Assembly (NCBI RefSeq): GCF_004402595.1 | Contig: NZ_SOFY01000037.1 | Span: 5,737-40,274, forward strand | Direction of reading: 5' to 3' | Length of the DNA stretch: 34,538 bases | DNA from: Cryobacterium shii | Lineage (GTDB): Bacteria > Actinomycetota > Actinomycetes > Actinomycetales > Microbacteriaceae | Shown: positions 1,342 to 32,980 of the stretch, in pieces | Layout of the letters: the number at the start of each line of letters is the position of its first letter | How positions within the stretch are numbered: the stretch's first letter is position 1 | Notes under the pieces: model-generated | Told to the model about the DNA's origin: nothing | Databases searched by the model: none | Seen by the model: only the letters and a program-made list of their open reading frames with translations | Made by a program: the position numbers and the translations under genes

Positions 1342-2771
1342 GCGGCGACGGCCCGTCCCTGGTCTGGTTCCGCGACGATCTGCGCCTCGCGGACAACCCC
1401 GCTCTGCAGGCCGCCCTCGAGCGCGGCGAGCCGATCGTGGCCGTGTACGTGCTGGACGAGGAGTCCGCCGGCGTGCGACCGCTCGGCGGCGCGGCCCGGT
1501 GGTGGCTTCACGGGAGCCTTCTCTCGCTGGCCGACTCGCTGGAACGCCTCGGCGGCCGGCTGACTCTGCGCCGGGGACCGGCCGAGCGCGTGATCGGCGA
1601 GCTGGCGGCATCCGTCGGCGCCGGCGCCGCGTTCTGGAACCGACGCTACGGCCGGGCCGAGCGCGAGGTGGACACCCGGATCAAGGCCAGCCTGCTGGCA
1701 GCCGGAACCGAGACCCGCAGCTTCGCGGGCTCGCTCCTGTTCGAACCGTGGACGATCCAGACCGGCCAGGGCGGGTCATACTCGGTCTTCACCCCGTTCT
1801 GGCGGGCCTGCACGGCCGGCCCGCCGCCCCGCGCGCCGTACCCCGCGCCGGAGGCGATCCCCGGACTCGCGGCCGACGTCCCCTCCGACGCCCTCGAGGA
1901 CTGGGCGCTGCTGCCGACCCGGCCAGACTGGGCCGGCGGACTGAGGGAAGCCTGGCAGCCGGGCGAAGAGTCCGCGCACCGCCTGCTCGATACTTTTCTC
2001 CGGGACTCGCTCCCCCGCTACGGCGCCGAGCGCGACCAGCCGGCCCAGGCCGTTACCTCGCGCCTGTCGCCCCACCTCCGCTGGGGCGAGATCAGCCCAT
2101 TCCAAATCTGGCATGCGACCGAATGGGCCCGGACCGGCCTGACCGGGAACGCCCAGTCCAGCGCGACGCGTTTTCTCACCGAGGTCGGCTGGCGCGAGTT
2201 CAGCTACCACGTGCTCTTCAACGCCCCCGACCTCGCGACCGAGAACCTGCGGCCCGAGTTCGACGCCTTCCCCTGGCCCTCGCTGGACGAGCGCGCGCTG
2301 GCGCGCTGGCAGCAGGGCCGCACCGGCATCCCCCTCGTCGACGCCGGGATGCGCGAACTGTGGCGCACCGGCAGCATGCACAACCGTGTGCGCATGGTGG
2401 CGGCGTCGTTCCTGATCAAGAACCTCCTGATCGACTGGCGCCTCGGCGAACAGTGGTTCTGGGACACCCTCGTCGACGCCGACGCGGCCAGCAACCCGTT
2501 CGGCTGGCAGTGGGTGGCCGGGTCGGGCGCCGACGCCGCACCCTATTTCCGGGTCTTCAACCCCGAGCTGCAGGCGAAGAAGTTCGATCCCCACGGGGAA
2601 TACATCCGTCAGAACGTGCCCGAATACGGCACGGATGCCTACCCCGCCCCGATCGTCGACCTCGGTGAGACGAGGCGGGCGGCCCTCGCCGCCTACGAGC
2701 AGATCAAGGGGATGAAGGAGCAGGCGATCGCGGCCCGCGCGGCCGCCGGCGCCGAGGCCGAAACCGTCTAG
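1338..2771 (+). CDS. phr: Deoxyribodipyrimidine photolyase
   Basis: Light-driven flavoenzyme that splits UV-induced pyrimidine dimers. The N-terminal antenna-binding Rossmann domain starts with LVWFRDDLRLADN (residues 8-20). The FAD-binding helical domain occupies about residues 200-440, with WGEISPFQIW near 250, RFLTEVGWREFSYH near 280, GMRELWRTGSMHNRVRMV near 340, and the hallmark block D-x-D-x-A-S-N-x-x-x-WQWVAGSGADA-PYFR-FNP near 380-410. At 477 aa it has normal class I length. The GTG start overlaps the preceding stop (GTGA). Its stop overlaps that of the convergent acetyltransferase by 3 nt. The motif set fits a CPD photolyase better than a plant-type cryptochrome, but a (6-4) photolyase is not excluded by eye. 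Pairing with an NADPH reductase may be coincidental. Confidence 0.95.
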   Translation: MSGDGPSLVWFRDDLRLADNPALQAALERGEPIVAVYVLDEESAGVRPLGGAARWWLHGSLLSLADSLERLGGRLTLRRGPAERVIGELAASVGAGAAFWNRRYGRAEREVDTRIKASLLAAGTETRSFAGSLLFEPWTIQTGQGGSYSVFTPFWRACTAGPPPRAPYPAPEAIPGLAADVPSDALEDWALLPTRPDWAGGLREAWQPGEESAHRLLDTFLRDSLPRYGAERDQPAQAVTSRLSPHLRWGEISPFQIWHATEWARTGLTGNAQSSATRFLTEVGWREFSYHVLFNAPDLATENLRPEFDAFPWPSLDERALARWQQGRTGIPLVDAGMRELWRTGSMHNRVRMVAASFLIKNLLIDWRLGEQWFWDTLVDADAASNPFGWQWVAGSGADAAPYFRVFNPELQAKKFDPHGEYIRQNVPEYGTDAYPAPIVDLGETRRAALAAYEQIKGMKEQAIAARAAAGAEAETV

Positions 2772-3295
2772 AGCGCCCGCTCGAGCACGAAGTCGTCCTC
2801 GTACCGTCCGCCCACCAGGAAGCGTTTCTCGCCGACCGTGGCGAACCCGTTCTTCTGGTAGAACCGGATGGCCCGCGCGTTCTCCTGGTTGACGCCGAGC
2901 CAGCTGCCGGCCGCCCCGCGTGCCCGGGCCGCCTCCAGCGTCGCCGCCATCAGGGGCGCGGCCACCCCGCGGCCGTGCGTCTCGGCGCGCAGGTAGCACT
3001 TGCTCAGTTCCACGGTGGGACGGATGCCGATGGCCGCGCGCACGTCGGCGTCGGCCGGTTCCGCGAATACGAGCATCGTGTACCCCAGCATCACCCCGCC
3101 CTCCTCGGCCACGAGGATCAGGCGCTCGGGATCGGCCAGGTAGGCGTCGAAGTTGCCCTCCGCGAGCACGTCGCGCAGGAACGCGGCGATGGCCTCGGCC
3201 GTGGTGTGCGGCGGGCAGGCGAGCCCGAACGTGGCGGCGGCCAGCTCGGCCAGCACCGCGGCATCCGTCGCCGTCGCCGTGCGAATCTCGATCAT
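2768..3295 (-). CDS. GNAT family N-acetyltransferase
   Basis: A 175-aa Gcn5-related acetyltransferase, which moves acetyl from acetyl-CoA to an amine; the substrate cannot be read from sequence. The acetyl-CoA-binding motif A is seen as LRAETHGRGVAAPLM near residues 103-117, followed by LGVNQENARAIRFYQKNGF, the usual N-x-x-A-x-x-F-Y-x-K-x-G-F block. It is convergent with the photolyase gene, sharing 3 nt. No Shine-Dalgarno is visible at ATG 3295. Instead TAGGGT lies 6 nt upstream on the minus strand, suggesting a leaderless transcript. The gene is separated from malate synthase by a strong hairpin, so it is probably transcribed alone. Confidence 0.9.
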   Translation of the reverse strand: MIEIRTATATDAAVLAELAAATFGLACPPHTTAEAIAAFLRDVLAEGNFDAYLADPERLILVAEEGGVMLGYTMLVFAEPADADVRAAIGIRPTVELSKCYLRAETHGRGVAAPLMAATLEAARARGAAGSWLGVNQENARAIRFYQKNGFATVGEKRFLVGGRYEDDFVLERAL

Positions 3296-3301
3296 CGTCC
3301 C

Positions 3302-3307
3302 ACCCTA
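3302..3307 (-). promoter_or_regulatory. Putative -10 box TAGGGT for the acetyltransferase (leaderless)
   Basis: The hexamer ends 6 nt before ATG 3295 on the minus strand. That spacing puts the transcription start at or next to the start codon. The -35 region is weak. Confidence 0.4.
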
Positions 3308-3333
3308 TCGACGCCCCCACCGCACGTACTTCA

Positions 3334-3394
3334 CGCGAGAGCGGGTGAATCGTCGGTCTGGCCAGGCCAAAACGACGATTCACCCGATCTCGCG
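3334..3394. terminator. Long hairpin after malate synthase, 22-bp arms
   Basis: Arms 3334-3355 and 3373-3394 pair at 21 of 22 positions around a 17-nt loop. The left arm begins CGCGAGAGCGGG and ends GAATCGTCG. It starts 13 nt past the malate synthase stop and lacks a clean U tract. A terminator is likely, and a dispersed palindromic repeat is possible. Confidence 0.8.
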
Positions 3395-3406
3395 GGAGGG
3401 CGATGC

Positions 3407-5074
<1,668 letters not shown>

Positions 5075-5265: not shown

Positions 5266-6756
5266 ATGGTCATCGTCGATCCAGCCCTCCGTCCGTCCCT
5301 GTCCGCGGCCCCTGCCGAGGAGGAAGGGCTCGACGCCCTCACCCTGGGCCGGCGCATCCGGGAAGTGCGCACGTCGCGGCGGATGACGCTCGACGCCCTC
5401 GCGGCGGCGATCGACCGGGCCCCGTCCCAGGTCTCGATGATCGAGAACGGCAAGCGCGAACCGCGACTGTCGATGCTGCGCACCATTGCCGGAGCCCTCG
5501 GAACCACCGTCGACGACCTGTTGAAGACGGATGCCCCGTCCGAACGAGCCGCCCTCGAAATCGCCGTCGAGCGGGCCCAGCGGGGTCCCGTGTTCACCGC
5601 CCTCGGACTGCCGCATATCCGCGTTGGCCGGGGAACCAGCGACGAAACCCTGCAGACGCTGCTCAGCCTGCACGGCGAGATTCTGCGCCTGCACCGGGAA
5701 CGGGCGGCGACCCCGGAAGAGGCCAGGCGGGCCAATGTGGAGCTGCGCGCCACCATGCGGGCCAAGGACAATTACTTCCCCGAGCTCGAGGCGCAGGCGC
5801 AGCGGCTGCTCGCCGCGGTGGGCCACACCGGCGGGCCGGTCTCCCACCAGGTCGTGGCCGACATGGCCACGCACCTCGGCTATTCGCTGCACTACGTCGG
5901 CGACCTGCCGAACTCGACCCGGTCGGTCACGGACAAGCGCAACCACCGCATCTACCTGCCGACGGAGCACTCCGCGTCCCGCGACTCGCGCTCGCCCATC
6001 CTGCAGGCGTTCGCCACCCTGCTCTGCGAACACGAAGAACCCGAAAACTATGCTGAATTTCTGGCCCAGCGGGTGGAGACCAACTACCTGACCGCGGCCA
6101 TCCTGCTGCCGGAAAAAGACACCGTGAAACTGCTCACCGAGGCGAAGAACCTGCGCCGCATCTCGATGGAAGACCTGCGCGACGCGTTCGCGGTCTCCTA
6201 CGAGACGGCCGCGCACCGGTTCACCAACCTCGCCACGGCCAGGCTGGACATCCCGGTGCACTTCATGAAGGTGCACGAGTCCGGCACCATGATCAAGGCG
6301 TACGAGAACGATTCGGTGCGCTTCCCCAGCGACGCGCTCGGCGCGGTTGAGGGCTCGACGGTCTGCCGCAACTGGACGGCTCGGACGGTCTTCCATGTGG
6401 CCGACCGGTTCAGCCCCTGGTACCAGTACACCGACACCCCGAGCGGGACCTTCTGGTGCACGTCCCGGATCGAGAAGGCCAAGGAGGGCGACTACTCGGT
6501 CAGCGTGGGCGTGCCGTTCACGCACGTGAAGTGGTTCCGCGGCCGCGAGACGAACAACCGGGCGGTGTCCCGCTGCCCCGACGAGTCCTGCTGCCGCCGC
6601 GCCCCCGACGAGCTGTCGGAGCGGTGGTCCGGCCAGTCGTGGCCGGCCGCGCGCACACCGACGAGCCTGCTGGCCGCGCTCCCCACCGGCACCTTCCCCG
6701 GCGTCGACCAGACCGAGGTGTTCCAGTTCCTGGAGGGGCACGCCCCGGCGAGCTGA
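5266..6756 (+). CDS. ramB: RamB-type XRE family transcriptional regulator of acetate metabolism
   Basis: A 496-aa regulator of the short-chain fatty acid (ScfR/RamB) family. The Cro/C1-type helix-turn-helix is at about residues 26-86 (IREVRTSRRMTLDALAAAI, VSMIENGKREPRLSML). An IrrE/ImmA-like central region covers about 190-290 (NHRIYLPTEH, LLCEHEEPENYAEFL). The C-terminal ScfR domain holds the Cys-rich stretch SRCPDESCCRR near 440. In Corynebacterium glutamicum, RamB controls aceA, aceB and acetate activation. Here it is divergent from malate synthase, which supports the same role and likely autoregulation. ATG 5266 is preferred; GTG 5248, in frame, is the alternative and neither has a good Shine-Dalgarno. 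The family call is firm; the exact regulon is inferred. Confidence 0.85.
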   Translation: MVIVDPALRPSLSAAPAEEEGLDALTLGRRIREVRTSRRMTLDALAAAIDRAPSQVSMIENGKREPRLSMLRTIAGALGTTVDDLLKTDAPSERAALEIAVERAQRGPVFTALGLPHIRVGRGTSDETLQTLLSLHGEILRLHRERAATPEEARRANVELRATMRAKDNYFPELEAQAQRLLAAVGHTGGPVSHQVVADMATHLGYSLHYVGDLPNSTRSVTDKRNHRIYLPTEHSASRDSRSPILQAFATLLCEHEEPENYAEFLAQRVETNYLTAAILLPEKDTVKLLTEAKNLRRISMEDLRDAFAVSYETAAHRFTNLATARLDIPVHFMKVHESGTMIKAYENDSVRFPSDALGAVEGSTVCRNWTARTVFHVADRFSPWYQYTDTPSGTFWCTSRIEKAKEGDYSVSVGVPFTHVKWFRGRETNNRAVSRCPDESCCRRAPDELSERWSGQSWPAARTPTSLLAALPTGTFPGVDQTEVFQFLEGHAPAS

Positions 6757-6918: not shown

Positions 6919-8349
6919 GTGGGCACGACCATTTTCGAACGAGCCAGGCCCGCCGCATCCGTCATCGACGAGGCCCTCGCCCGCACCCGCCAGGCCCCGT
7001 TCTGGCTCGACGACGTTGCGCCGCAGACGAGCCGCCCGCGGCTCACGGCCGACCTGGACTGCGACCTGGCTATCGTCGGCGGCGGCTACCTGGGCCTCTG
7101 GACCGCGGTGCTCGCCAAACGGCAGGACCCGGGCGCGCGGGTGGTCCTGCTCGAGGCGCGCACGATCGGCTGGGCCGCCTCCGGGCGCAACGGCGGCTTC
7201 TGCGAGGCGAGCCTGACCCACGGGGAGGAGAACGGCCGGCGCCGCTGGCCGCGGGAGATCGACCGGCTGACCGAGCTGGGGCTGGAGAACCTCGACGAGA
7301 TCGAGCGCGCGGTCGCCGAGCTCGGCCTGGACTGCGATTTCGAACGCACCGGGGCCATCGACCTGGCCGTCGAGAAGCACCAGGTCGACTGGCTCCGCGC
7401 GGAGCCCACGAACGATGACACCGTGTTTCTGGATGCCGCGGCGCTGCACGCCGAGGTCGACTCGCCCACCTACCTGGCCGGAGTGTGGCACAAGCGCACG
7501 AACGCCCTCGTTCACCCCGGCAAGCTGGCCACCGAGCTGGCCCGCGTGGCCACCGGGCTCGGAGTCGAGATCTTCGAGCACACCCCGGTCACGGGCCTCG
7601 ACACGCAGGGGCTGTCCCCGGCGCAGGGCACCCGGCTGCGCACCGAGGCTGGTGTAGTGCGCGCGCGGAAGACCGCGCTGGCGACGAACGTCTTCCCGTC
7701 GCTGTTGGCGCGGAACCGTCTCGCCACGGTGCCCGTGTACGACTACGTGCTGATGAGCGAGCCGCTCAGCGCGGAACAGCTCGCCGCGATCAACTGGCAG
7801 AACCGGCAGGGGCTGAGCGACCTGGCCAACCAGTTCCACTACTACCGGCTGAGCGCGGACAACCGCATCCTGTTCGGCGGCTATGACGCCATCTACCACT
7901 TCGGCGCCCGGGTGCGCGGCGGCTACGAGAACCGGCCGGAGAGCTTCCGGCGCCTGGCCAGCCACTTCTTCACCACGTTCCCGCAGCTGGCCGGGCTGCG
8001 GTTCAGCCACCGCTGGGCCGGCGCCATCGACACCTCCACCCGGTTCTGCGCCTTCTTCGGAACGGCCCGCGCCGGCCGGATCAGCTACGCGGCCGGGTTC
8101 ACCGGCCTCGGCGTGGGTGCCACCCATTTCGCGGCGAAGGTCATTCTCGACCAGCTCGCCGGCCGGCAGACCGAGCGCACGCAACTGGAGATGGTGCGCG
8201 GACGCGCCCTGCCGTTCCCGCCGGAACCGCTGGCCTCGATGGGCATCCAGACCACGCGCTGGTCGCTCGACCGCGCCGACCACAACGAGGGTCGCCGCAA
8301 TCTCATCCTGAAGACGCTCGACGCGCTGGGCCTCGGCTTCGACTCCTAG
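6919..8349 (+). CDS. FAD-dependent oxidoreductase, DAO family (PuuB/OrdL-like)
   Basis: A 476-aa flavoprotein of the D-amino-acid oxidase/glycine oxidase superfamily, expected to oxidise a C-N bond of an amino acid or polyamine. The dinucleotide-binding motif DLAIVGGGYLGLWTAVLAK is near residues 51-69, followed by VVLLEARTIGWAASGRNGGF, the usual flavin-contact block. The C-terminal domain has RFSHRWAGAIDTSTRFCAFFG and the FAD-closing run YAAGFTGLGVGATHFAAKV. Similarity in layout to gamma-glutamylputrescine oxidase is plausible, and a polyamine/GABA-type unit lies at 17251-22172, but the genes are not linked. GTG 6919 is preceded by AGAGGA at good spacing. The substrate is unknown. Confidence 0.85.
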   Translation: MGTTIFERARPAASVIDEALARTRQAPFWLDDVAPQTSRPRLTADLDCDLAIVGGGYLGLWTAVLAKRQDPGARVVLLEARTIGWAASGRNGGFCEASLTHGEENGRRRWPREIDRLTELGLENLDEIERAVAELGLDCDFERTGAIDLAVEKHQVDWLRAEPTNDDTVFLDAAALHAEVDSPTYLAGVWHKRTNALVHPGKLATELARVATGLGVEIFEHTPVTGLDTQGLSPAQGTRLRTEAGVVRARKTALATNVFPSLLARNRLATVPVYDYVLMSEPLSAEQLAAINWQNRQGLSDLANQFHYYRLSADNRILFGGYDAIYHFGARVRGGYENRPESFRRLASHFFTTFPQLAGLRFSHRWAGAIDTSTRFCAFFGTARAGRISYAAGFTGLGVGATHFAAKVILDQLAGRQTERTQLEMVRGRALPFPPEPLASMGIQTTRWSLDRADHNEGRRNLILKTLDALGLGFDS

Positions 8350-8401
8350 CCCGCGCCGCGCATCCGTGGGTCGCCAGCCCCAGCGTCAGCCCGCCCTAAC
8401 G

Positions 8402-8518: not shown

Positions 8519-8980
8519 CTAGACCGCGGCGGGCTGCGGGTCGGGCAGGCGGTGCAGCGCGTCCACGAGGGGGGCGAGCTCCGGCTTCTGCTCCGCGGCG
8601 GCGAGCGCCGCGGCGAGGGTCTCGTCATAGACCGGGCGGGCCGAGCCCAGCAGGGTCTGGCTGGCATCCGTCAACTCGGTGTAGATGCCGCGCCGGTCGT
8701 CGGCACAGAGGATGCGGGTCAGCAGCCCCCGGTCTTCGAGCCGGTTCACCAGGCGGGTGGTGGCACTACTGCTGAGGGCGGCCGCTCCGGCGAGCTGCTG
8801 CATCCGCATGTGCCAGCCGTGCTGGCGGCTGAGGGCGTCCAGCACGGTGAATTCGACCACGGACAGCTCGGCGGCATCCTGCAGGGCCCGCTCGAGCTCG
8901 ATCTCGATCAGCGCGTGCAGGGAGGCGAGCGTGCGCCAGCCCTGAGCGCGCACCTCGACGGCGTCGTCTTCGATGCCCAT
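8519..8980 (-). CDS. MarR family transcriptional regulator
   Basis: A 153-aa winged-helix regulator. The central DNA-binding part is visible as SVVEFTVLDALSRQHGWHMRMQQLAGAAALSS, then the recognition helix SATTRLVNRLEDRGLL and the wing DDRRGIYTELTDAG-like run. MarR proteins bind DNA as dimers and usually release it on binding phenolic or drug-like ligands. ATG 8980 is chosen because GGAG lies 6 nt upstream; the ORF runs on to 9082 but that extension reads through the intergenic region. It is divergent from an MFS exporter gene, the classical arrangement in which the regulator represses the pump. If the pump gene is truly broken, this regulator may have lost its main target. Confidence 0.9.
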   Translation of the reverse strand: MGIEDDAVEVRAQGWRTLASLHALIEIELERALQDAAELSVVEFTVLDALSRQHGWHMRMQQLAGAAALSSSATTRLVNRLEDRGLLTRILCADDRRGIYTELTDASQTLLGSARPVYDETLAAALAAAEQKPELAPLVDALHRLPDPQPAAV

Positions 8981-9117: not shown

Positions 9118-10343
9118 ATACCCATTGGCCTTTTCGCCCTCGCCCTCGGAGGGTTCGGCATCGGACTCACCGAGTTCGTCATCATGGGCATCCTGCCCGA
9201 CCTCGCCGCCGATTTCGGGATCAGCGAGGCCGCGGCCGGCTGGCTGATCTCCGGCTACGCCCTGAGCGTGGTCGTCGGCACCCTCGGTCTGACCGCCGCC
9301 GTGACCCGGCTGCCGCGCAAGAAGGTGCTGATCGCCCTGATGGTCCTGTTCATCCTCGGCAACCTGATCAGCGCACTCGCCCCGACCTACGCCCTGATGA
9401 TGCTCGGCCGGGTGGTCGCCGCACTCTGCCACGGCGCGTTCTTCGGCATCGGCTCCGTGCTCGCCGCCGACATGGTGGCACCGACGAAGAAGTCCGGGGC
9501 GATCGCGATCATGTTCACCGGCCTGACCGTCGCCAACGTGCTCGGCGTGCCCTTCGGCACCCTGCTCGGCCAGAACCTCGGCTGGCGCGCCACGTTCTGG
9601 GCGATCACCCTGATCGGCGTGATCGCGCTGGTCGGAATCGCGACCCTCGTGCCGCAGATCGAGCACGCCACCGACCAGAACGGCGGTCTCCGCGGCGAGC
9701 TGAGAGCCTTCCGCTCCGGCCAGGTCTGGCTGTCCATCGCCGTCACGGTGCTCGGCTACGGGGGCATGTTCGGGGCGTTCACCTACATCGCGTTCACCCT
9801 GACCGAGGTCAGCGGCCTCGCGGCATCCACTGTGCCGTTCCTGTTGATACTCTTCGGCGTGGGTCTCTTCATCGGCAATATCGTCGGCGGCAAGGCGGCG
9901 GACCGTTCCGTCGACACGACCCTGATCGTGCTGCTGGCGGCCCTGACGGTGGTTCTCGTCTTCTTCGCGCTGACCGTCCGCAGCCAGGTCGCAACGATCG
10001 CATCGCTTCTGCTCCTCGGCGGGTTCGGCTTCGCCACGGTTCCCGGCCTGCAGATGCGCGTGATGAGCTACGCCAGCGCGGCGCCCACCCTGGCCTCCGG
10101 CGCCAACATCGCCGCCTTCAACCTCGGCAACACGCTCGGCGCCTGGCTCGGCGGCCTGACCATCACGATCGGGCTGGCTACACCTCGCCGATCTGGGCCG
10201 GGGCCGGCGTGACGGTGCTCGGCCTGGTCGTCATGGTCGCTGCGGCGCGCGGCGCCCGGCTGACCCGCCGCCGGGTGGCATCCGTCGCCCTGCCGGTGAC
10301 GGCTCCCGTCGCGGCTCAGGTTGTGGACGCGGGCGCGCGGTAG
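9118..10343 (+). pseudogene. MFS drug exporter gene (AraJ/Cmx type) with ATA start and frameshift
   Basis: A 12-helix major facilitator of the DHA1 type; recognisable runs are PIGLFALALGGFGIGLTEF at the N-terminus, LLGRVVAALCHGAFFGIG and FNLGNTLGAWLGGL. Two lesions are visible. The family N-terminus starts at PIG, and the codon before it, 8 nt after a strong AAGGAG (9104-9109), is ATA (9118-9120) where ATG or GTG is expected. Near 10176, CTGGCTAC appears where CTGGGCTAC would keep the frame, so the uninterrupted frame from ATG 9184 ends prematurely at 10212. Adding one G restores GYTSPIWAGAGVTVLGL and a stop at 10343, giving 408 residues, normal for the family. Either the gene is decaying or the sequence has errors. 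The restored stop falls inside the 69-bp repeat. Confidence 0.75.
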
Positions 10344-10376: not shown

Positions 10377-10402
10377 CATCCGTGGGTTCGAAACGACGGA
10401 TG
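10377..10402. terminator. Small inverted repeat CATCCGT/ACGGATG
   Basis: Arms 10377-10383 and 10396-10402 face each other across a 12-nt loop that contains TTCGAA. It lies between the convergent MFS and transglutaminase-like genes. Both arms are copies of the over-represented octamer core described in the findings, so it may be a terminator built from that motif. Confidence 0.5.
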
Positions 10403-10415
10403 CCGGCGGCGCGCC

Positions 10416-12190: not shown

Positions 12191-13858
12191 TCACCCCTCT
12201 CTCTCCCCGGCCGGCGCGGTCGACGCCTGCTGCTGCTGTTGCTGCTGCTCGTTGTCGCCGACGGGCTTGTCCTGCGGCGAGTGGTCCACGGCGTGCGCGA
12301 CCCCGGTCGAGCGCACGTTGGCGGCCTGGCCGGCGACCAGTCCCTGGATGGAGCGCCCGGGCCCCTCGGTGAAGGAATCCGGTTCCGTGCCGATCACCCA
12401 GGTGTCCTTGGACCCGCCGCCCTGGCTGGAGTTGACCACGAGCTCCCCCTCGGGCAGCGCGACCCGGGTGAGTCCGCCCGGCAGCACCCAGACATCCGTG
12501 CCGTCGTTCACGGCGAACGGTCGCAGGTCGGCGTGCCGCGGCCGCATGCCCGCGTCCACGAGGGTGGGGATGGTGGAGAGTTGCACGACCGGCTGCGCGA
12601 TCCAGCCACGCGGGTCCTTCAGCAGCTGCGCCGGCAGGGTGTCCAGCTCGGCGGCGGATGCCGCGGGCCCGACCAGGAGCCCCTTGCCGCCCGACCCGTC
12701 GACGGGCTTGACCACGAGCTCGCCGAGCCGGTCCAGTACCTCCTCGAGGGCCAGCGGATCTTCGAGCCGCCAGGTGTCGACGTTGGGGATGACGGCGTCC
12801 TCGCCGAGGTAGTACCGGATCAGCTCGGGCAGGTAGGTGTAGACCAGCTTGTCGTCGGCGACCCCGTTGCCGACGGCGTTGGCGATGGTGACGTTGCCGA
12901 GCCGGGCGGCCATCAGGATGCCCGGCGACCCCAGTTGGGAATCGGCCCGGAACTGCGGCGGGTCCAGGAATTCGTCGTCGACGCGACGGTAGATCACGTC
13001 GACCCGGGTGGGCCCGGCGGTGGTGCGCATCCAGACCCGGCCGCCGGAGCAGAACAGGTCCCGCCCCTCGACGAGCTCGACTCCCATCAGCCGGGCCAGC
13101 AGGGTGTGCTCGAAGTAGGCGGAGTTGAAGACGCCCGGGGTGAGCACGACCACGTTGGGGTCGTCGATCCCCGCCGGGGCCGAGGCGCGGAGGGCCTGAA
13201 GCAGCTTGTTCGGGTAGTCCCCGACCGGGCGCACGCGCATCGAGGCGAACAGCTCCGGCAGGGTCTGGGCCATCACGCGGCGGTTGGAGATGACGTAGCT
13301 CACCCCGCTGGGCACCCGCACGTTGTCCTCGAGCACTCGCCAGGCTCCCCGCTCGTCCCGGATCAGGTCGATCCCCGACACCTGGATGCGCACGTTGTTC
13401 GCCGAGACGATGCCGGCCGCCTGCCGATGGAAGTGACTCGACGAACTGATCAGACCGGCCGGGATGACGCCGTCATGCACCGCGGCCTGGGGTCCGTAGA
13501 TGTCCGCGAGGAACGCCTCGAGTGCCCGCACCCGCTGTTTGATCCCGGATTCGACCGTGACCCACTCCTGCTGCTCGATCACGCGCGGCACCGCGTCCAG
13601 CGGGAACGGCCGCTCCTCCCCCGCGAAGTCGAACGTGACCCCCTGGGCGAGATAGCTGCTCGCCAGGGCATCCGTGCGGCCCCGGAGCTCTTTCTGCGTC
13701 ATTTTCGCCAGGGCCGCATACACGTCCTTATAGGCCGTGCGCGCCTCCACCGGCGTGAGCGAGGTGAGGTCGGGGAACATTTCGTCCCAGGCGCTCGGCG
13801 CGCCGTTTTTCAATCGAAGGGATGCGGTCGTGCCGTAGCCCGTGAACAGGTCAACCAT
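12191..13858 (-). CDS. Circularly permuted ATP-grasp protein
   Basis: A 555-aa member of the circularly permuted type 2 ATP-grasp family, predicted from comparative work (Iyer and Aravind on amidoligases) to form peptide bonds in an uncharacterised modification or metabolite pathway. Seen: the N-terminal run YAALAKMTQKELRGR, the central LEDNVRVPSGVSYVISNR (metal or ATP contact region), VVLTPGVFNSAYFEHTLLARLMG, DVIYRRVDDEFLDP, and the glycine-rich VVKPVDGSGGKGLLVG near residue 390, ending the core near SSQGGGSKDTWVI. Beyond this an 80-residue tail contains seven glutamines encoded by a CAG/CAA run. First gene of the operon with alpha-E and transglutaminase-like proteins. ATG 13858 is supported by the conserved start MVDLFTGYG. 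Substrate unknown. Confidence 0.9.
   Translation of the reverse strand: MVDLFTGYGTTASLRLKNGAPSAWDEMFPDLTSLTPVEARTAYKDVYAALAKMTQKELRGRTDALASSYLAQGVTFDFAGEERPFPLDAVPRVIEQQEWVTVESGIKQRVRALEAFLADIYGPQAAVHDGVIPAGLISSSSHFHRQAAGIVSANNVRIQVSGIDLIRDERGAWRVLEDNVRVPSGVSYVISNRRVMAQTLPELFASMRVRPVGDYPNKLLQALRASAPAGIDDPNVVVLTPGVFNSAYFEHTLLARLMGVELVEGRDLFCSGGRVWMRTTAGPTRVDVIYRRVDDEFLDPPQFRADSQLGSPGILMAARLGNVTIANAVGNGVADDKLVYTYLPELIRYYLGEDAVIPNVDTWRLEDPLALEEVLDRLGELVVKPVDGSGGKGLLVGPAASAAELDTLPAQLLKDPRGWIAQPVVQLSTIPTLVDAGMRPRHADLRPFAVNDGTDVWVLPGGLTRVALPEGELVVNSSQGGGSKDTWVIGTEPDSFTEGPGRSIQGLVAGQAANVRSTGVAHAVDHSPQDKPVGDNEQQQQQQQASTAPAGEREG
12228..12248 (-). repeat. Glutamine-codon (CAG/CAA) trinucleotide run
   Basis: Seven consecutive Gln codons, read as CTGCTGCTGTTGCTG on the plus strand, encode a poly-Q stretch in the ATP-grasp tail. 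Length changes would stay in frame. Confidence 0.85.
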
Positions 13859-22172: not shown

Positions 22173-22187
22173 GCATCCGTTAACGAC

Positions 22188-25030: not shown

Positions 25031-25136
25031 CCTTGTTGCGCGCATCCGTGGAAACTGACCAAAAATAGGCGCAAGAAAGCATGGCGGAATTCAACTACCT
25101 CAATCAAGTCTAGGTCACTCGGCGGCCACTGTAAAG

Positions 25137-25227: not shown

Positions 25228-25233
25228 CGAAGC

Positions 25234-26617: not shown

Positions 26618-27532
26618 ATGGAACTTTCGCCCCCGGTCGTGCGCGTGCGCGACCTGCACAAGTCCTACGGCGACTTCAATGCCGTGCGCGGGATCAGTTT
26701 CGACATCGAGGCCGGTGAGACGTTCGCGCTCCTCGGACCGAACGGGGCCGGGAAGAGCACCGCGATCGAGATCCTCGAGGGCTACCGCGACCGCACCTCC
26801 GGCGAGGTGAGCGTGCTTGGCGTCGACCCGCAGCGCGGCGGCCTCGGCTGGAAATCGCGCCTGGGCATCGTGCTGCAGTCCAGCGGGGAGAGCGGCAACG
26901 TCACCGTCACAGAGCAACTCACCCACTTCGCCGGCCTCTACCCGCGGCCGCGCCGCGTCGCCGAGGTGATCGAGGCCGTCGGCCTGGAGCCGAAGGCGAA
27001 GACCCGCATCAGCAAGCTCTCCGGCGGCCAGCGTCGGCGCGTGGACGTGGCGCTGGGCATCATCGGCCGGCCCGAACTGTTGTTCCTGGACGAGCCCACC
27101 ACGGGCTTCGACCCCGAGGCACGCCACCAGTTCTGGGACCTCGTGCGCCGGCTCAAGGCGGAGGGCACGACCATCCTGCTCACCACGCACTACCTCGACG
27201 AGGCCGCCCAGCTCGGCGACCGGGCGGGCGTGATCAACGACGGCCGGCTGATCGACATCGGTGCCATCGGCGAGATCGGCGGGGCGGATGCCCGGGTCCC
27301 CTTGGTGCGCTGGCGCGACGCTTCCGGCACGCTCCAGGAGAAACGCACGCAGGAACCGGCGCGGCTGGTGGCCGAACTCGCCGCGGCATCCGGTGGCGAA
27401 CCCGGCAACCTCGAGGTGATCCGGCCCAGCCTGGAGGACATCTACCTCGGCCTGGTGCGCGGCAGCCGGCCGGCCTCCGGCACGACGGATGCGGCGGACG
27501 CCCTGGGGAACGACGCGGAGGTGCTCGCATGA
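26618..27532 (+). CDS. ABC exporter ATP-binding protein
   Basis: A 304-aa ATPase of the ABC-2 (DrrA/CcmA-like) export type. Walker A GPNGAGKST is at residues 41-49, the signature KLSGGQRRR near 134, Walker B ELLFLDEPTTGFDPEA near 153-168, and the H-switch LLTTHYLDEAAQ after it. All catalytic residues are present. A C-terminal extension follows the core. ATG 26618 is preferred to the upstream in-frame ATG 26579, which would add 13 unrelated residues; no clear ribosome-binding site is visible. The stop overlaps the permease start (ATGA). The substrate cannot be told; such pairs export drugs or lipids. Confidence 0.93.
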   Translation: MELSPPVVRVRDLHKSYGDFNAVRGISFDIEAGETFALLGPNGAGKSTAIEILEGYRDRTSGEVSVLGVDPQRGGLGWKSRLGIVLQSSGESGNVTVTEQLTHFAGLYPRPRRVAEVIEAVGLEPKAKTRISKLSGGQRRRVDVALGIIGRPELLFLDEPTTGFDPEARHQFWDLVRRLKAEGTTILLTTHYLDEAAQLGDRAGVINDGRLIDIGAIGEIGGADARVPLVRWRDASGTLQEKRTQEPARLVAELAAASGGEPGNLEVIRPSLEDIYLGLVRGSRPASGTTDAADALGNDAEVLA

Positions 27533-28452
27533 GCCGGCTCGAGACGGACTCCGGCAGCACGACCCGAGCTGCGGCGAGCGCAGAGCGGCCAGGGTCTCGT
27601 GCGAGGTCGACGGCGAGGTCGAGGTCGAGCGCCGGGCTGGCGACGGTCCTGCGGGTCGGGCTTTCCCGCATCCGTTACGAGACCCGGATCTACTTCCGCA
27701 CCACGGACAGCGTGTTCTTCACGTTCCTGTTCCCGTTCATCATGCTGGCCATCTTCACGGCCGCTTTCGGGTCGTCGGGCAATGTGGGCGCCGCGCCCGA
27801 CGGCACCGGCGGCATCAGCGTGGGCGCGTATTACCTGCCCGGGATGCTCGCCGCCGGCATGCTGCTCTCGGGGGTGCAGAACCTCGCCGTCGACATCGCC
27901 GGGGAGAAGGGCGACGGCACCCTCAAACGGCTCGGCGGCACGCCGCTGTCGCCGCTGAGCTATTTCATCGGCAAGATCGGTCAGGTTCTGGTGACCGGTA
28001 TCTTCCAGGCGGCGCTGCTGATCCTGGTCGCCCGGGTGCTGCTCGGCATCGACCTGCCGACCGAACCGGGGAAGTGGCTGACCTTCGCCTGGGTGTTCCT
28101 GTTCGGCGTCGTCACCTGCGCTTTCCTGGGCATCGCGCTCTCGGCGCTGCCCCGCTCGGGCAAGAGTGCCACCGCGGTGGTCATCCCGATCGTGCTGATC
28201 CTGCAGTTCATCTCCGGCGTCTACCTGCAGTTCTACCTGCTGCCGGACTGGATGCAGAACCTGGCCAGCGTGTTCCCGCTCAAGTGGATGGCTCAGGGCA
28301 TGCGCGGCGTGTTCCTGCCGGACAGCTTCGCCAGTCTCGAGCAGAGCGGCGCCTGGGACTTCCCGCTGATCGCGCTCAACCTGGCGATCTGGCTGGTCGT
28401 CGGGCTCGTGCTCAGCCGGGTCACCTTCCGCTGGATCCGCAAGGACACCTAG
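27529..28452 (+). CDS. ABC-2 type exporter permease
   Basis: A 307-aa membrane protein with about six helices: SVFFTFLFPFIMLAIFTAAF (about 60-80), YYLPGMLAAGMLLSGVQNLAV, FIGKIGQVLVTGIFQAALLILV, FAWVFLFGVVTCAFLGIALSAL, AVVIPIVLILQFISGVYLQF and LIALNLAIWLVVGLVLSRV. The typical sequence order with FLP...LPPWMQNLA-like PDWMQNLASVFPLKWM supports the ABC-2 permease fold. The first 40 residues are a hydrophilic Arg/Ser-rich stretch encoded by a short repetitive sequence (CGAGGTCGACGGCGAGGTCG, near 27600). It overlaps the ATPase gene by 4 nt. A tandem repeat and a hairpin follow. Confidence 0.92.
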   Translation: MSRLETDSGSTTRAAASAERPGSRARSTARSRSSAGLATVLRVGLSRIRYETRIYFRTTDSVFFTFLFPFIMLAIFTAAFGSSGNVGAAPDGTGGISVGAYYLPGMLAAGMLLSGVQNLAVDIAGEKGDGTLKRLGGTPLSPLSYFIGKIGQVLVTGIFQAALLILVARVLLGIDLPTEPGKWLTFAWVFLFGVVTCAFLGIALSALPRSGKSATAVVIPIVLILQFISGVYLQFYLLPDWMQNLASVFPLKWMAQGMRGVFLPDSFASLEQSGAWDFPLIALNLAIWLVVGLVLSRVTFRWIRKDT

Positions 28453-28532: not shown

Positions 28533-28609
28533 AATTCGACGGAGATTTTGCCCGCATCGGGCCCGAAACACCGGAATCCCACTTTTTAGAGCAGAATCTC
28601 CGTCGAATT
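28533..28609. terminator. Long hairpin, 19-bp stem (family copy 2)
   Basis: Arms AATTCGACGGAGATTTTGC (28533-28551) and 28591-28609 pair with a single T/G wobble. The loop is 39 nt, as in the copy at 8402-8478, and contains CCGGAA and TTTTT. It lies 80 nt after the exporter stop. Confidence 0.85.
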
Positions 28610-28703
28610 GGTAGGGCGCCGGACACCGTTTCCCGTTTGGGGCGAGACGGGCCGCCGGGCGAAGGACCGGGCTGGACGAAGCATCCGTCGCCGGCCGGGG
28701 GCA

Positions 28704-29467: not shown

Positions 29468-30351
29468 TGGTCACCCCGCACCCGGACGACCCCGCCGCGG
29501 CCGAGCCCGGTAACGACGAAGCCAGCAGCGGCGAGCCGCGCACGGACCCACCGGGCACGGGCGAGCGCACGGATGCCGCAGCGCCCGAACCCGACACCGA
29601 CGCACTGTCCGAGACGGTCGCGCTGGAGCCCGCGGCGTCCGAGGCCGAGGTCTCCGACCTCACCGTGGCCCTGGCCCCCGCCCCCGACAGCGCGGCCACC
29701 GGACCTGCCGTTCCCGACGACCTGACCGTGGCGTTCACCCCGGTGCGCGACGGCGTGGAGCCCGACCGCGAGGCGCCCGAAGCCGGTGCGTCCGAGCCCT
29801 CCGACCTCACCGAGGCCTTCGCCCCCGGGCCCGATGCCACCAGGCCCGGAACCGGGCCCGGCACCGGCACCGACCCAGACGGTGCGCACACCATCGCGTC
29901 CCCGGGGCCGATCCCCGAATACCGGCTCGAGCGGTCCGGCACCGGAACCGGAACCGGAACCGGAACCGGCACCGCGGCCGACACGGCAGCGGACACGACG
30001 GGCGACACCGCGACGCTTCGTTATCTCCCGGCCGATCTCCCGGCCGCCAAGCCTGTCCGCCCGGCGACGGGGGCACCCGCCTACCCGGTCGCCGGTGGGC
30101 CGGGGTACCCCGCGGCAGCGGTGCCGGACGTGCCCGCGCAGCCGACGGCATCCGTGCGCCGCACTCGCCGGCCGCTCTTCGGCACCATCGTCTGGGGCGT
30201 GCTGCTGCTCGCCTTCGCCGCCTTCATGCTGATCGGGGTGCTGGCGCCCGCCCCCGCGGACCCGACCCTCCGGCTTCTCAGCGGTGTCGTCGCGATCGGA
30301 CTGCTGCTCATCGTCGTCGGCATCGTCGTCGTGTTCCGCCGAGCCGACTGA
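29467..30351 (+). CDS. Disordered acidic protein with two C-terminal membrane helices
   Basis: A 294-aa protein with no recognised family. The first 200 residues are acidic, Pro/Thr/Ala-rich and probably disordered. They contain three related motifs, SDLTVALAPAP, DDLTVAFTPVR and SDLTEAFAPGP, plus SETVALEPA, and six Gly-Thr pairs from a 6-bp DNA array (29938-29973). The C-terminus has two hydrophobic helices (LFGTIVWGVLLLAFAAFMLIG and LLSGVVAIGLLLIVVGIVVVF). The start overlaps the upstream stop (TGATG), so it is coupled with the LiaF-like gene. Repeated T-x-A-[LF] motifs could be phosphothreonine sites for FHA-domain partners; this is a guess. Confidence 0.7.
   Translation: MVTPHPDDPAAAEPGNDEASSGEPRTDPPGTGERTDAAAPEPDTDALSETVALEPAASEAEVSDLTVALAPAPDSAATGPAVPDDLTVAFTPVRDGVEPDREAPEAGASEPSDLTEAFAPGPDATRPGTGPGTGTDPDGAHTIASPGPIPEYRLERSGTGTGTGTGTGTAADTAADTTGDTATLRYLPADLPAAKPVRPATGAPAYPVAGGPGYPAAAVPDVPAQPTASVRRTRRPLFGTIVWGVLLLAFAAFMLIGVLAPAPADPTLRLLSGVVAIGLLLIVVGIVVVFRRAD
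29938..29973 (+). repeat. Gly-Thr hexanucleotide repeat, six units
   Basis: GGAACC is repeated perfectly four times, bordered by GGCACC at both ends. In frame in the disordered protein. Confidence 0.9.
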
Positions 30352-30378: not shown

Positions 30379-31572
30379 CTACAGGTCCAGACCGACCAGC
30401 ACCGGCTCGGGCTGCAGGTTGACGCCGAACTCGGCCTGCACCCGGCCCAGCACGAGGCGGGCGAGTTGTGCGATCTCGTCGGCGGTCGCTCCCCCCGTGT
30501 TGGTCAGCGCGAGCGTGTGCTTGCTCGACACGGCGGCGCGCGAACCGGGCAGCCGGAAGCCGCGCGTGATGCCCGAGTTCTCGATCAGCCAGGCCGCGCT
30601 CAGCTTGACCAGCGGCACGACGGGCGTGCCCGGGATCGGTCCCACCCCGGCGTACTCGTCGAGCGGGATCACTCGGTCGGGCAGCTCCTGCTCGTTCAGC
30701 GGCCAGCGCGGGCATGCGGCCGGCAGGGTGCGCGAGAAGGCCAGCGACACGATCGGGTTGGTGAAGAACGAACCGGAACTGCGGGTGTCCGGGTCGGCCG
30801 GGTCGAGCACCATCCCCTTCGCCGCGCGCAGCCCCAGCACGGTCTCCCGCAGCGCGGTCAGCGGCACGCGGTCGCCCAACTGCACGCCGAGGGCCGTCGC
30901 GAGCTGCGCGTACGCAACCGGCCGACTGAGGGCGCTGCCGAGAACGGATGCCTCCGCCCGGGTGTCGTGCAGGTCCAGTTCCACCGCGACCACCAGGCCG
31001 CGGAGCCCCTGCTTGAGCACCGAGGTGCGATAGCCGAGTGCGAGCTCCGCCGCGGGCATCCGGCGCAGCTCATGGGTCTCGTAGTCCAGGAAGTCGATCG
31101 CCGCCAGGCTGCTGCCGAGCTCCTGCCCGTAGGCGCCGATGTTCTGCACCGGGGCCGCCCCGGTCGACCCGGGGATGCCGGACAGGGCCTCGATGCCGGC
31201 CCAGCCCTGCGCGACCGTGTAGGCCACCACCTCGTCCCACGGTTCGCCGGCCTGCACGCGCAGCCGCAGCCGCCCGGGCTCGGTCGAGGCCGAGGCCGAC
31301 GCAGAAGCAGACGCCGGCTCAGAAGCAGAAGCAGGGTCGAGCACGCTGACCCCGCGGGTCAGCACCCGGATCACGGTGCCGTCGAAGCCCTCGTCGGCGA
31401 CCACGGTGTTGGAGCCGCCGCCGAGCAGCATCCAATCGTCACCGGACGCCCACGCCTCGAGCGTCTGGTCGACCAGGTCCTGCTCGGTCGCCGGGGAGAC
31501 CATCCGGGCCGGGGGGCCGCCCACGGCCATGGTGGTCAGCTGGGCGAAAGGAGGGGGTGCGAGCTCGGTCAT
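30379..31572 (-). CDS. murB: UDP-N-acetylmuramate dehydrogenase
   Basis: NADPH-dependent flavoenzyme that makes UDP-MurNAc, an early cytosolic step of peptidoglycan synthesis. The FAD-binding part shows TTMAVGGPPARMV, LLGGGSNTVVADEGFDGTVIRV, and the central IEALSGIPGSTGAAPVQNIGAYGQEL with the conserved GIPG and GAYGQE; later SSGSFFTNPIV holds the catalytic Ser, and the last domain has AAWLIENSG and SSKHTLALTNTGGAT. The 397 aa exceed the usual length partly because of an Ala/Ser-rich insertion near residue 82-97 ([12 protein letters not shown]) encoded by repetitive DNA at about 31285-31336. ATG 31572 lies 14 nt after hadB, indicating an operon. Confidence 0.96.
   Translation of the reverse strand: MTELAPPPFAQLTTMAVGGPPARMVSPATEQDLVDQTLEAWASGDDWMLLGGGSNTVVADEGFDGTVIRVLTRGVSVLDPASASEPASASASASASTEPGRLRLRVQAGEPWDEVVAYTVAQGWAGIEALSGIPGSTGAAPVQNIGAYGQELGSSLAAIDFLDYETHELRRMPAAELALGYRTSVLKQGLRGLVVAVELDLHDTRAEASVLGSALSRPVAYAQLATALGVQLGDRVPLTALRETVLGLRAAKGMVLDPADPDTRSSGSFFTNPIVSLAFSRTLPAACPRWPLNEQELPDRVIPLDEYAGVGPIPGTPVVPLVKLSAAWLIENSGITRGFRLPGSRAAVSSKHTLALTNTGGATADEIAQLARLVLGRVQAEFGVNLQPEPVLVGLDL
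31285..31336 (-). repeat. Imperfect Ala/Ser codon repeat inserted in murB
   Basis: GCAGAAGCAGA-type units alternate with GAGGCCGAGGCC on the plus strand and encode a run of Ala-Ser pairs. The insertion falls between conserved strands of the FAD-binding domain, so a surface loop is expected. Confidence 0.7.
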
Positions 31573-31586
31573 CGGGCGCGGTCCGC

Positions 31587-32021: not shown

Positions 32022-32464
32022 TCGTCTCCCCTGACGACGAGGGTGGAGGTCGCGGTGACCACGTGGGCGCCGGCGGCGTCGACGACGCGCGATTCGGCCG
32101 TCACCATCGAGTGGCCGCCGAGGCTCTTGACGCTCGCCACCGTGAGGGTGGCGGTGAGCAGGTCGCCGGCCACGATCGGGCGGCTGAAGCTGAATCGCTG
32201 GTCGCCGTGCACGACCCGGCTGAAGTCGATTCCGGCATCCGGCTCGGCCAGAAGCTGCGCCAGCGTGGCCTCCTGCACGACCACGGCGAAGGTGGGCGGG
32301 GCGACGACGTCGGCGTAGCCCGCGGCGCGCGCGGCTTCCGGGTCGAGGTTGATCGGACTGGTGGCGAAGACGGCGCGGGCGAACTCGCGCACCTTCTCCC
32401 GGCCGACAAGGTAGGGGGCGACGGGCGGGAAGACCCGGCCCTGCAGTTCGGGGTTGACAGACAC
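32018..32464 (-). CDS. hadA: MaoC-like dehydratase N-terminal domain protein, HadA-like
   Basis: A 148-aa hot-dog fold protein resembling the non-catalytic HadA/HadC subunit: YLVGREKVREFARAVFATSPINLDPEAARAAGYADVVAPPTFAVV and VVHGDQRFSFSRPIVAGDLLTATLTV are the typical runs. It lacks the Asp-His hydratase motif present in hadB. Position with hadB and murB is the conserved actinobacterial layout. GTG 32464 has no Shine-Dalgarno; TAAGCT lies 6 nt upstream on the minus strand, so the message may be leaderless. The divergent acetyltransferase starts only 51 nt away. Confidence 0.9.
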   Translation of the reverse strand: MSVNPELQGRVFPPVAPYLVGREKVREFARAVFATSPINLDPEAARAAGYADVVAPPTFAVVVQEATLAQLLAEPDAGIDFSRVVHGDQRFSFSRPIVAGDLLTATLTVASVKSLGGHSMVTAESRVVDAAGAHVVTATSTLVVRGDE

Positions 32465-32470
32465 AGGAGG

Positions 32471-32508
32471 AGCTTACCTTTTCGCACCCGGCACGGATCG
32501 GGCAGACT
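32471..32508. promoter_or_regulatory. Back-to-back leaderless -10 boxes for hadA and the acetyltransferase
   Basis: TAAGCT (32471-32476, minus) ends 6 nt before GTG 32464. CAGACT (32503-32508, plus) ends 7 nt before GTG 32516, with TTTCGC 17 nt upstream. The two promoters share fewer than 60 nt. Confidence 0.4.
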
Positions 32509-32515
32509 GGCTGAT

Positions 32516-32980
32516 GTGGAATTCAAGCGCGTACGCTTCACCGACCAGGAGGTGGCCCCGCTCCTCGCCGACCTCCGCCGCGAGTACGACGAGCGTTACG
32601 GCGACGGCGACTCCGTGCACGACGTTCCGGGCGGGGCGTTCGAGCCGCCGACGGGCGGCTTCCTGGTGCTGCTCGACGGGGGCGCCACGGTGGCGGGCGG
32701 CGGCATCCGTCGGCTCGACGACACGACCGGCGAGGTGAAACGGATGTGGACCAACCCGGCCTACCGCCGGCAGGGCCACGCCTCGGCCGTGCTCGCCGCC
32801 CTCGAGGAACTGGCCCGCGAACTCGGCTACCGGCAGCTGCGCCTGGAGACCGGGCACGCGCAGCCGGAGGCCCTCTCGCTGTACCGCCGCCTCGGCTACC
32901 GGGAGATCGGCAACTACGGCATCTACGAGCGCGCGCACGGGTTCGAACGCACCCTCACGACCGGCGACGACCTCACCTGA
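32516..32980 (+). CDS. GNAT family N-acetyltransferase
   Basis: A 154-aa acetyltransferase. Motif A is seen in VKRMWTNPAYRRQGHASAVLAALEELARELGY (acetyl-CoA-binding R-R-x-G-x-A), followed by LRLETGHAQPEALSLYRRLGYREIGNYG, the usual motif B. GTG 32516 is chosen because CAGACT lies 7 nt upstream and the preceding reading frame belongs to the intergenic region; ATG 32514 opens a different frame and is rejected. The substrate is unknown. Confidence 0.9.
   Translation: MEFKRVRFTDQEVAPLLADLRREYDERYGDGDSVHDVPGGAFEPPTGGFLVLLDGGATVAGGGIRRLDDTTGEVKRMWTNPAYRRQGHASAVLAALEELARELGYRQLRLETGHAQPEALSLYRRLGYREIGNYGIYERAHGFERTLTTGDDLT

Follow-up and report, generated by a model that had tools for sequence, protein, structure and literature searches.

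An abundant, dialect-bearing DNA word of the Microbacteriaceae, with a DNA-uptake or Chi-like role as candidate functions

Results

A 34,538-nt stretch of Cryobacterium shii DNA (the window) is rich in the octamer GCATCCGT, and our analysis confirmed that this over-representation is real and reaches far beyond the window alone. The octamer is part of one asymmetric word family with a constant core, GGCATCC(G), and edges that vary by lineage. Among the candidate functions a DNA-uptake word fits best, closely rivalled by a Chi-like site read by an AdnAB-type nuclease.

Exact matching showed that the window contains GCATCCGT 26 times (14 plus, 12 minus), compared with 1.73 expected and a maximum of 6 in 100 dinucleotide shuffles. 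The original prediction had counted 25 (14 and 11) by hand; the 14 were confirmed, the other strand proved to hold 12, and the example positions given were correct to within a few bases. Its estimate for the core GCATCC, about 75 copies with 24 expected by chance, compares with 78 found and 29.9 expected. Twenty of the 26 copies lie inside predicted genes and six between them. The genic copies at 1608..1615 (+) and 2631..2638 (−) are each in a photolyase gene, and that at 30944..30951 (−) is in a gene with MurB domains. Copies that share a gene in opposite orientation include 3020..3027 (−) with 3261..3268 (+), 16451..16458 (−) with 16538..16545 (+), and 29569..29576 (−) with 30148..30155 (+). 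The other genic copies are at 747..754 (−), 5527..5534 (−), 6955..6962 (+), 8664..8671 (+), 13668..13675 (+), 14228..14235 (−), 15407..15414 (−), 17518..17525 (−), 27485..27492 (−), 27668..27675 (+) and, in a low-scoring predicted gene, 32703..32710 (+). Among the intergenic copies, that at 8360..8367 (+) lies 10 bp past a predicted stop codon; those at 10278..10285 (+) and 10396..10403 (−) form an opposite pair between convergent genes; that at 22173..22180 (+), also between convergent genes, lies immediately past a predicted stop codon; and two more are at 25042..25049 (+) and 28681..28688 (+).

The whole genome (3.49 Mb) contains 1650 copies of GCATCCGT, 822 on the plus and 828 on the minus strand, or about one octamer per 2 kb; the same word read backwards, used as a control, occurs 49 times (27 plus, 22 minus), giving a ratio of 33.7. 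Codon tests were carried out with 315 predicted genes (113,273 codons) from a 432-kb sample of this genome. These genes hold 184 copies, compared with 14.7 ± 3.9 after synonymous shuffling within genes (100 rounds, maximum 26) and 21.3 ± 4.3 after a shuffle that also preserved both neighbouring bases (60 rounds, maximum 30); the refuting test put forward with the original prediction did not overturn the over-representation. Nor was it matched by unrelated octamers: under the neighbour-preserving shuffle (25 rounds) 9277 octamers present 10 times or more were ranked; GCATCCGT came 1st, and those at ranks 2 to 16 all overlapped it or differed from it by one base.

In 233 copies sampled from the C. 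shii genome, the preceding base was G in 61%, and the following base was C in 46%, G in 32%, T in 21% and A in 1%, which bears out the extended form originally proposed as a tendency. Variants one base off the word were accepted mostly at its edges. The claim that copies force the codons GCA and GAT holds for 121 of 192 genic copies, which lie in frames using GCA (55) or GAT (66). Among the 15,337 Ala codons, 860 are GCA, and GCATCC accounts for 106 of the 860. Word density is similar within and between genes, and the majority of copies stand singly inside genes. Motif sites were modestly conserved from species to species: 70 of 158 were identical in the partner species, compared with 11,170 of 38,873 words with the same letter content, in comparisons that are pairwise and non-independent.

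The comparison with other Microbacteriaceae called for in the original prediction showed enrichment across much of the family, with spellings that vary by lineage. In 106 of 199 genomes of the family GGCATCC outnumbered the same letters read backwards by 5-fold or more, whereas the octamer reached 5-fold in none of 139 genomes from other families of the same order (median 1.7). In the 96 large family genomes at or above 5-fold, GGCATCC density was 0.34 to 1.9 per kb (median 0.88), and one 3.9-Mb genome contains 7364 copies. The 34 family genomes below 2 Mb showed weaker enrichment (median 3.0-fold), with 3 of them at 5-fold or more, and genus g52 showed none (0.9-fold). The strongest form in C. 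shii is GCATCCGT (9.3-fold), with CATCCGCT at 2.2; in three congeners CATCCGCT is co-dominant (7.7- to 15.5-fold). The strongest form in Microbacterium is CGGCATCC (10.4-fold), with GCATCCGT at 3.8; in five named Microbacterium loci CGGCATCC occurred 121 times compared with 24.9 by codon shuffle, and ranked 1st of 3693 octamers.

The word was at background in two plasmids of Microbacteriaceae and in an island (two stretches). Ten phages gave 0.6- to 3.7-fold over codon shuffle, that is, from background up to about half the chromosomal excess, compared with 4.4- to 6.6-fold for the five chromosomal loci. The highest values came from three related 17-kb phages, in which CGGCATCC was 2.7- to 3.7-fold over codon shuffle on both strands and ranked just 41st of 1335 octamers.

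Strand bias of the octamer was assayed by a test independent of origin position, the origin-based test in a second genome, G277, having been dropped because no gene near its position 1 could be read as dnaA. Biases of 75:25 and 65:35 were both rejected in the C. shii genome (21 stretches) and in G277 (22 stretches), and with them replichore polarity; the word shows no polarity with transcription either. The strand skew along replichores that marks KOPS and AIMS is therefore lacking here, as the original prediction had supposed in calling a KOPS-like signal unlikely. Strand counts per stretch in C. shii were instead more even than chance (heterogeneity 7.1, compared with 20.9 expected), and this unpredicted result was followed by orientation tests, which are exploratory. 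Neighbouring copies about 50 to 800 bp apart tend to point in opposite directions. In three data sets motif words took ranks 1 and 2 for opposite-orientation excess at 51 to 800 bp among 436, 366 and 393 common 7-mers, control lists that include words overlapping the motif. The excess was also seen inside single genes (opposite to same, 96:56, 121:93 and 348:246), and no trend across fifths of genes was found by which gene position or gene strand could explain it. The effect is modest, with an opposite-to-same ratio of 1.2 to 1.3 and no fixed spacing, and it depends on the form of the word: GGCATCC ranked only 31st in C. shii, and GCATCCGT showed no preference in G277 (83 opposite, 80 same).

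At spacings of 30 bp or less, in 12 genomes, the order ACGGATGC..GCATCCGT was found 243 times and the reverse order 95 times, and hairpins made of opposite copies occur behind stop codons. Of 43 such close pairs examined in context, a subset of the pairs from three genomes, 20 were intergenic and none of these 20 lay between divergent genes; five further pairs in C. shii are genic. Inverted pairs near gene ends, which the original prediction had pointed out, are borne out for part of the close pairs; most copies are single and within genes.

As for uptake machinery, ComEC was matched in 195 of 199 family genomes. The C. shii genome has a type IV pilus locus, and its comEC is split into two parts on two contigs, adjoining IS21-type genes. 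When genomes were classed by T2SSF match, with class limits that we set ourselves, those with type IV pilus-like T2SSF had the highest median enrichment (7.1, compared with 4.6 and 4.5; Kruskal p 0.006). Even so, among 25 large genomes whose T2SSF match was weak or absent, 10 were enriched at least 5-fold; these ten include all three sampled genomes of genus g8 and both of g44, and G140 is borderline. Within 11 mixed genera PilM was not associated with enrichment (p 0.90), so a role of PilM as its determinant is unsupported at that level. ComEA and ComEC were both matched in the unenriched genus g52.

Discussion

We tentatively read the word as a family-wide self-recognition signal that acts like the DNA uptake sequences (DUS) of Neisseriaceae and Pasteurellaceae, at less than even probability. 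Preferential uptake of DNA carrying words of its own kind has been described for those two families (PMC1939737). The DUS of Neisseriaceae is likewise described as a short asymmetric word, present in thousands of copies at family level, whose core stays constant while dialects differ by lineage, and the copy numbers found here (1650 and 7364) are of the same order as the published DUS counts. The uptake signal sequence (USS) of Haemophilus influenzae, described as a short word with about 1300 copies, often forms terminators from two opposite copies. Its effect on uptake is known from experiment. The present word shares with DUS and USS its copy excess, its dialects and its inverted-pair hairpins at gene ends, and differs from the USS in sequence and from both in host, which is actinobacterial here and Gram-negative in H. 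influenzae. If the DUS-like reading is right, a sequence-specific protein would bind the double-stranded word while DNA from outside is being taken up or incorporated by the ComEA-ComEC route, and word-bearing DNA of the cell's own kind would be preferred; repeated replacement by such DNA could then enrich the word and let dialects drift apart.

The likeness to uptake sequences that was first noticed in the window is supported in its anatomy by the copy numbers, the dialects, the hairpins at gene ends and the background values of two plasmids and the island. Uptake as a function is a candidate only: within genera enrichment is not tied to PilM, ten of the 25 large genomes whose T2SSF match is weak or absent are enriched at least 5-fold, and comEC of C. 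shii is split. This split gene and the tagged genera in which neither a type IV nor a Tad filament is clearly matched, a further difference from DUS, count against uptake, as does the unenriched genus g52 with its ComEA and ComEC matches. So do two features that uptake does not predict: the threefold excess in three small phages, and the preference for opposite orientation at 50 to 800 bp, which has no known counterpart in DUS systems. None of the papers listed in our search reports natural transformation in Microbacteriaceae.

A Chi-like site, at which a helicase-nuclease of the AdnAB/AddAB class would stop degrading DNA from a break on meeting the correctly oriented word and recombination would follow, is rather unlikely, although several results fit it. 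The word is asymmetric, GC-rich and chromosomal, is at background in two plasmids and the island and is not linked to pili; since a two-ended break needs both orientations, local strand balance would be favoured, consistent with the even strand counts and the opposite-orientation preference; and CGGCATCC is raised on both strands of the three 17-kb phages. However, the rank of 41st among the octamers of those phages prevents their enrichment from serving as proof, the orientation effect, as we read the binned data, seems to come from surplus opposite pairs rather than from a deficit of same-strand ones, and the polarity that defines Chi was rejected in both genomes. The Chi of E. coli is described as polarised and as occurring about once per 5 kb, compared with once per 2 kb for the unpolarised word here, and as RecC was found in none of the 199 family genomes, RecBCD Chi is ruled out and only the AdnAB/AddAB class is left. 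The opposite-facing pairs could also be bound by a nucleoid or bridging protein, as suggested by their top ranks in three data sets, their persistence inside single genes and the similar genic and intergenic densities; we think this improbable, since spacing is not fixed and the effect is modest and differs by word form.

A modification or strand-mark site would likewise be a poor bet. By this account, which follows a proposal made for the HIP1 palindromes of cyanobacteria, a methyltransferase or nicking repair enzyme would act at the word, which would accumulate by biased repair or by selection for about one mark per kb, as the median GGCATCC density of the enriched large genomes and the weakness of enrichment in small genomes would suggest. 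HIP1 is described as a hyper-abundant octamer at about one per kb, with alternate forms by lineage and low numbers in some genomes; lineage variants, and one-off words accepted mostly at the edges, are traits similar to those seen here. HIP1 is, however, palindromic and linked to methyltransferases, whereas GCATCCGT differs from its own reverse complement, and a repair-driven process should also have affected the two resident plasmids that are at background. Plain composition or codon context has next to no probability: it has in its favour the general abundance of GC-rich words and nothing beyond, although comparison with the reversed word controls for composition just approximately, other families giving a median of 1.7; the codon shuffles refute such an artefact, and the neighbour-preserving shuffles and the family range exclude it too.

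A literature search gave no match to the octamer strings, and the only matches to 7- and 8-base strings were unrelated by title; the papers listed by searches on uptake, competence and frequent words included nothing on Microbacteriaceae. Whether AdnAB responds to Chi is stated in the literature to be an unanswered question. We put at about even the chances that this word is the first family-wide, dialect-bearing DNA self-recognition signal of a Gram-positive (actinobacterial) family, that its reader protein prefers or needs two opposite copies within several hundred bp, and that it serves either as an uptake sequence, the first in actinobacteria, or as the Chi so far missing for an AdnAB-type enzyme. 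Because the word is abundant and bears dialects in a family with cultivable genera, such as Microbacterium, the questions of uptake and of an AdnAB Chi are directly testable. As a practical lead, DNA tagged with the word might transform Microbacteriaceae better, and low word density could mark recently acquired DNA.

Results

In the window the octamer GCATCCGT was found 26 times (14 plus, 12 minus) relative to 1.73 in dinucleotide shuffles (maximum 6 in 100 shuffles) and had the highest Markov score of any octamer, confirming the over-representation in both orientations of the original prediction. The predicted excess of the hexamer GCATCC was also present (78 versus 29.9 expected), this count being slightly inflated by four GGATGC spaced with a 12-bp period where a predicted gene repeats Gly-Asp-Ala-Phe (window 14065–14106). 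The Cryobacterium shii genome (3,487,785 bases, 91 contigs) contained 822 plus and 828 minus copies, compared with 27 and 22 of the reversed word, that is, 33.7-fold and 0.47 per kb. A 432-kb sample of this genome (20 stretches and the window) held 233 copies relative to 22.9 under a third-order Markov model. In 315 of its predicted genes, called by a simple codon-usage script rather than a standard gene finder, two codon-preserving shuffles gave 14.7 and 21.3 copies, nowhere near the 184 observed; like octamers were not equally enriched, GCATCCGT topping the ranking of the 9277 octamers present 10 times or more. At one locus (L013, 8480–8533), three intergenic 23-bp tandem units each contained the octamer.

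Among the 233 copies the preceding base was G in 61% and the following base A in 1%. Off-by-one words changed inside the core were not enriched in the 432-kb sample; the enriched variants differed at the edges (ACATCCGT, 48 versus 8.6; TCATCCGT, 39 versus 14.5; GCATCCGC, 103 versus 45.2). Density was 0.53 per kb within genes (192 copies) and 0.64 per kb between them (39 copies), and genic copies were 98 sense and 94 antisense.

Range and dialects

The nearest named relatives of the window's rplA include Leifsonia, Cryobacterium, Agreia, Curtobacterium, and Microbacterium, placing the host within or close to Microbacteriaceae. Across 199 Microbacteriaceae genomes from 85 genera, the shared core GGCATCC exceeded its reversed word, a rough control only, at least 3-fold in 154, at least 5-fold in 106 and less than 2-fold in 11, with maxima of 7364 copies in 3.9 Mb for the core and 2406 for the octamer. 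Restricting the set to genomes of 2 Mb or more with completeness of 90% or higher left 155, of which 96 showed at least 5-fold enrichment; the excess was weaker in the 34 genomes under 2 Mb (median 3.0; three at least 5-fold). The two large genomes of one genus, g52, showed none (0.9). A sample of the order comprised 149 genomes, 10 from the family; in the 139 from other families the octamer ratio had a median of 1.73, reached 3-fold in 11 and 5-fold in none (largest 4.8), at densities of at most 0.078 per kb. One genome of genus g85 (G164) is motif-poor, with 812 GGCATCC versus 271 control words, relative to 5599 versus 274 in its congener G106; it is a natural loss usable for comparison. A contig titled Stenotrophomonas maltophilia (L034) is probably a Microbacteriaceae contaminant, since its rplA is 83% identical to the query and it holds nine GGCATCC in 5.4 kb.

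The preferred form varied among 11 groups counted over 21–472 kb each, the remaining genera being represented by one or two 20-kb stretches. GCATCCGT was strongest in C. shii (238 versus 25.5) and Leifsonia sp. Leaf264 (17 versus 1.3); in five named Microbacterium loci it was CGGCATCC (135 versus 12.9; GCATCCGT, 28 versus 7.4). Three congeners used CATCCGCT alongside GCATCCGT (33 versus 2.4, 16 versus 2.1, 41 versus 2.6), whereas C. shii did not (48 versus 22.1). In genome G057, GGGCATCC (32 versus 3.8) and AGGCATCC (31 versus 3.3) were likewise high, and GCATCCGT was absent from the one Curtobacterium locus examined. Cryobacterium frigoriphilum (L024) carried CTGGTTGAG 10 times and GTCGAAACC 13 times in 20.7 kb, perhaps another interspersed repeat.

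Polarity and pairing

Strand heterogeneity was assayed without reference to an origin, on the assumption that every stretch lies within one replichore. It was 7.1 for 21 C. shii stretches (20.9 expected without polarity, 74 with 75:25 polarity) and 16.5 for genome G277 (21.8 and 62.7). As these values fall far below the polarity expectation, we concluded that the octamer lacks polarity, in line with the earlier view that a KOPS-like signal was unlikely. Mixing of the two strands in C. shii was more even than expected at random, 0.15% of simulations giving so low a value; GGCATCC was over-even in both genomes and CGGCATCC in neither.

In exploratory tests of orientation, adjacent copies were more often opposite than same for the octamer in C. 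shii (129:83) and for GGCATCC in G277 (339:264) and the pooled others (572:451); no such preference was seen for GCATCCGT in G277 (83:80), GGCATCC in C. shii (198:184), or five Microbacterium loci (86:74). All GCATCCG pairs at 51–800 bp gave 195/151 (C. shii), 271/226 (G277), and 690/543 (pooled others), and the preference held inside single genes (96:56, 121:93, 348:246). Motif words ranked first and second at this distance among 436, 366, and 393 common 7-mers (mean z −1.3 to −1.9), GGCATCC in C. shii just 31st.

Within 30 bp, the order ACGGATGC..GCATCCGT outnumbered the other 243 to 95 in 12 genomes picked for high motif counts, being reversed in G180 (4 and 10) and near even in G102 (33 and 27). 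We read 43 such pairs in context: 23 from 20 stretches of G142 (genome total 31), 14 of 19 from C. shii, and six of 27 from G053, chosen by eye among the wider-spaced ones. Inverted pairs had been noted near gene ends; this held for 20 of the 43, which were intergenic (13, 4, and 3, respectively; about 14% of the C. shii sample is intergenic). The other five C. shii pairs were genic. The 20 lay in 10 convergent and 10 co-directed gaps, never between divergent genes, and several continued into a longer stem shortly after a stop codon.

Mobile DNA and uptake genes

Relative to synonymous shuffles, CGGCATCC was 4.4- to 6.6-fold enriched in five Microbacterium chromosomal loci, 6 versus 5.9 and 3 versus 4.4 in two plasmids, and 0.6- to 3.7-fold in ten phages. 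Five phages, one a Curtobacterium phage, deviated from the shuffle by less than two standard deviations; the rise was 1.9-fold in Swervy and 2.5-fold in Clayda5, largely on a single strand, and 2.7- to 3.7-fold on both strands in three related 17-kb phages, where CGGCATCC ranked 41st of 1335 octamers. These small phages (Pelczarvirinae; L213, L254, and L255), with this host form about threefold over a codon shuffle, encode an Lsr2-like protein. Two C. shii island stretches beside comEC held one octamer in 24.7 kb. The 432-kb sample also contained an intergenic element, at window 8407–8473 and 28538–28604, whose inverted arms (GAATTCGACGGAGATT...) lie about 57 bp apart; 32 of its 35 arm copies were intergenic. 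The 10-base arm core had no match in 120 kb from three congeners, 420 kb from G277, or 103 kb from Microbacterium, and the whole resembles a miniature transposable or REP-like element.

A ComEC domain (PF03772) matched in 195 of 199 family genomes. When script-called genes from 18 com loci were compared by BLAST, ComEA relatives turned up at 15 loci and ComEC relatives at 16, both also in motif-free g52; neither was found at L186, probably because of poor gene calling at 52% G+C. C. shii ComEA has SLBB and helix-hairpin-helix domains. Its ComEC is in two parts on separate contigs, matching residues 3–270 and 265–795 of a congener's 817, with IS21-type genes on the contig of the second. The split gene (L172 on C83 and L173 on C44) sits beside DNA of lower GC that carries IS21-type genes, and additional genes separate comEA from the first comEC part.

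One C. shii locus encodes two T2SSE domains, T2SSF, prepilin, prepilin peptidase, PilM, and PilO, and we interpret it as a type IV pilus. PilM scored above cut-off in 97 of 199 genomes; among those at least 90% complete, median enrichment was 7.0 with PilM and 3.5 without, an association absent within the 11 genera holding both states. By best T2SSF score, medians were 7.1 (type IV pilus-like, n = 92), 4.6 (Tad-like, n = 38), and 4.5 (weak or none, n = 25; 10 still at least 5-fold), with labels and limits (1e-25, 1e-11) of our own choosing and G140 borderline at 1.4e-11.

Discussion

We regard as firm the existence of the word, its range in the family, its dialects, the lack of polarity, and an enrichment independent of codon use; any protein said to read it is inferred. 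A Chi-like site, a close rival of DNA uptake though on balance unlikely, would agree with a role inside the cell that does not depend on pili and with both strands being required. However, the polarity used to define Chi in proteobacteria is absent here, RecC was not found in any of the 199 family genomes, and use of Chi by AdnAB is stated to be unknown. A mark resembling the cyanobacterial HIP1 (PMC4390886) is improbable, HIP1 being palindromic whereas this word is not, and we give equally little credence to a structural site. PMC5217627, PMC8022716, PMC5030088, and PMC4824097 also underlie these comparisons.

The original prediction leaned toward a DNA uptake sequence. In its scale, dialects, hairpins, and lack of polarity the word resembles such sequences: published DUS counts (PMC3630211) are of the same order, and Haemophilus influenzae terminators are frequently made of opposite USS copies. 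The findings on filaments, comEC, and phages count against this reading; we suggest only tentatively that the word may be a self-recognition sequence for DNA uptake.
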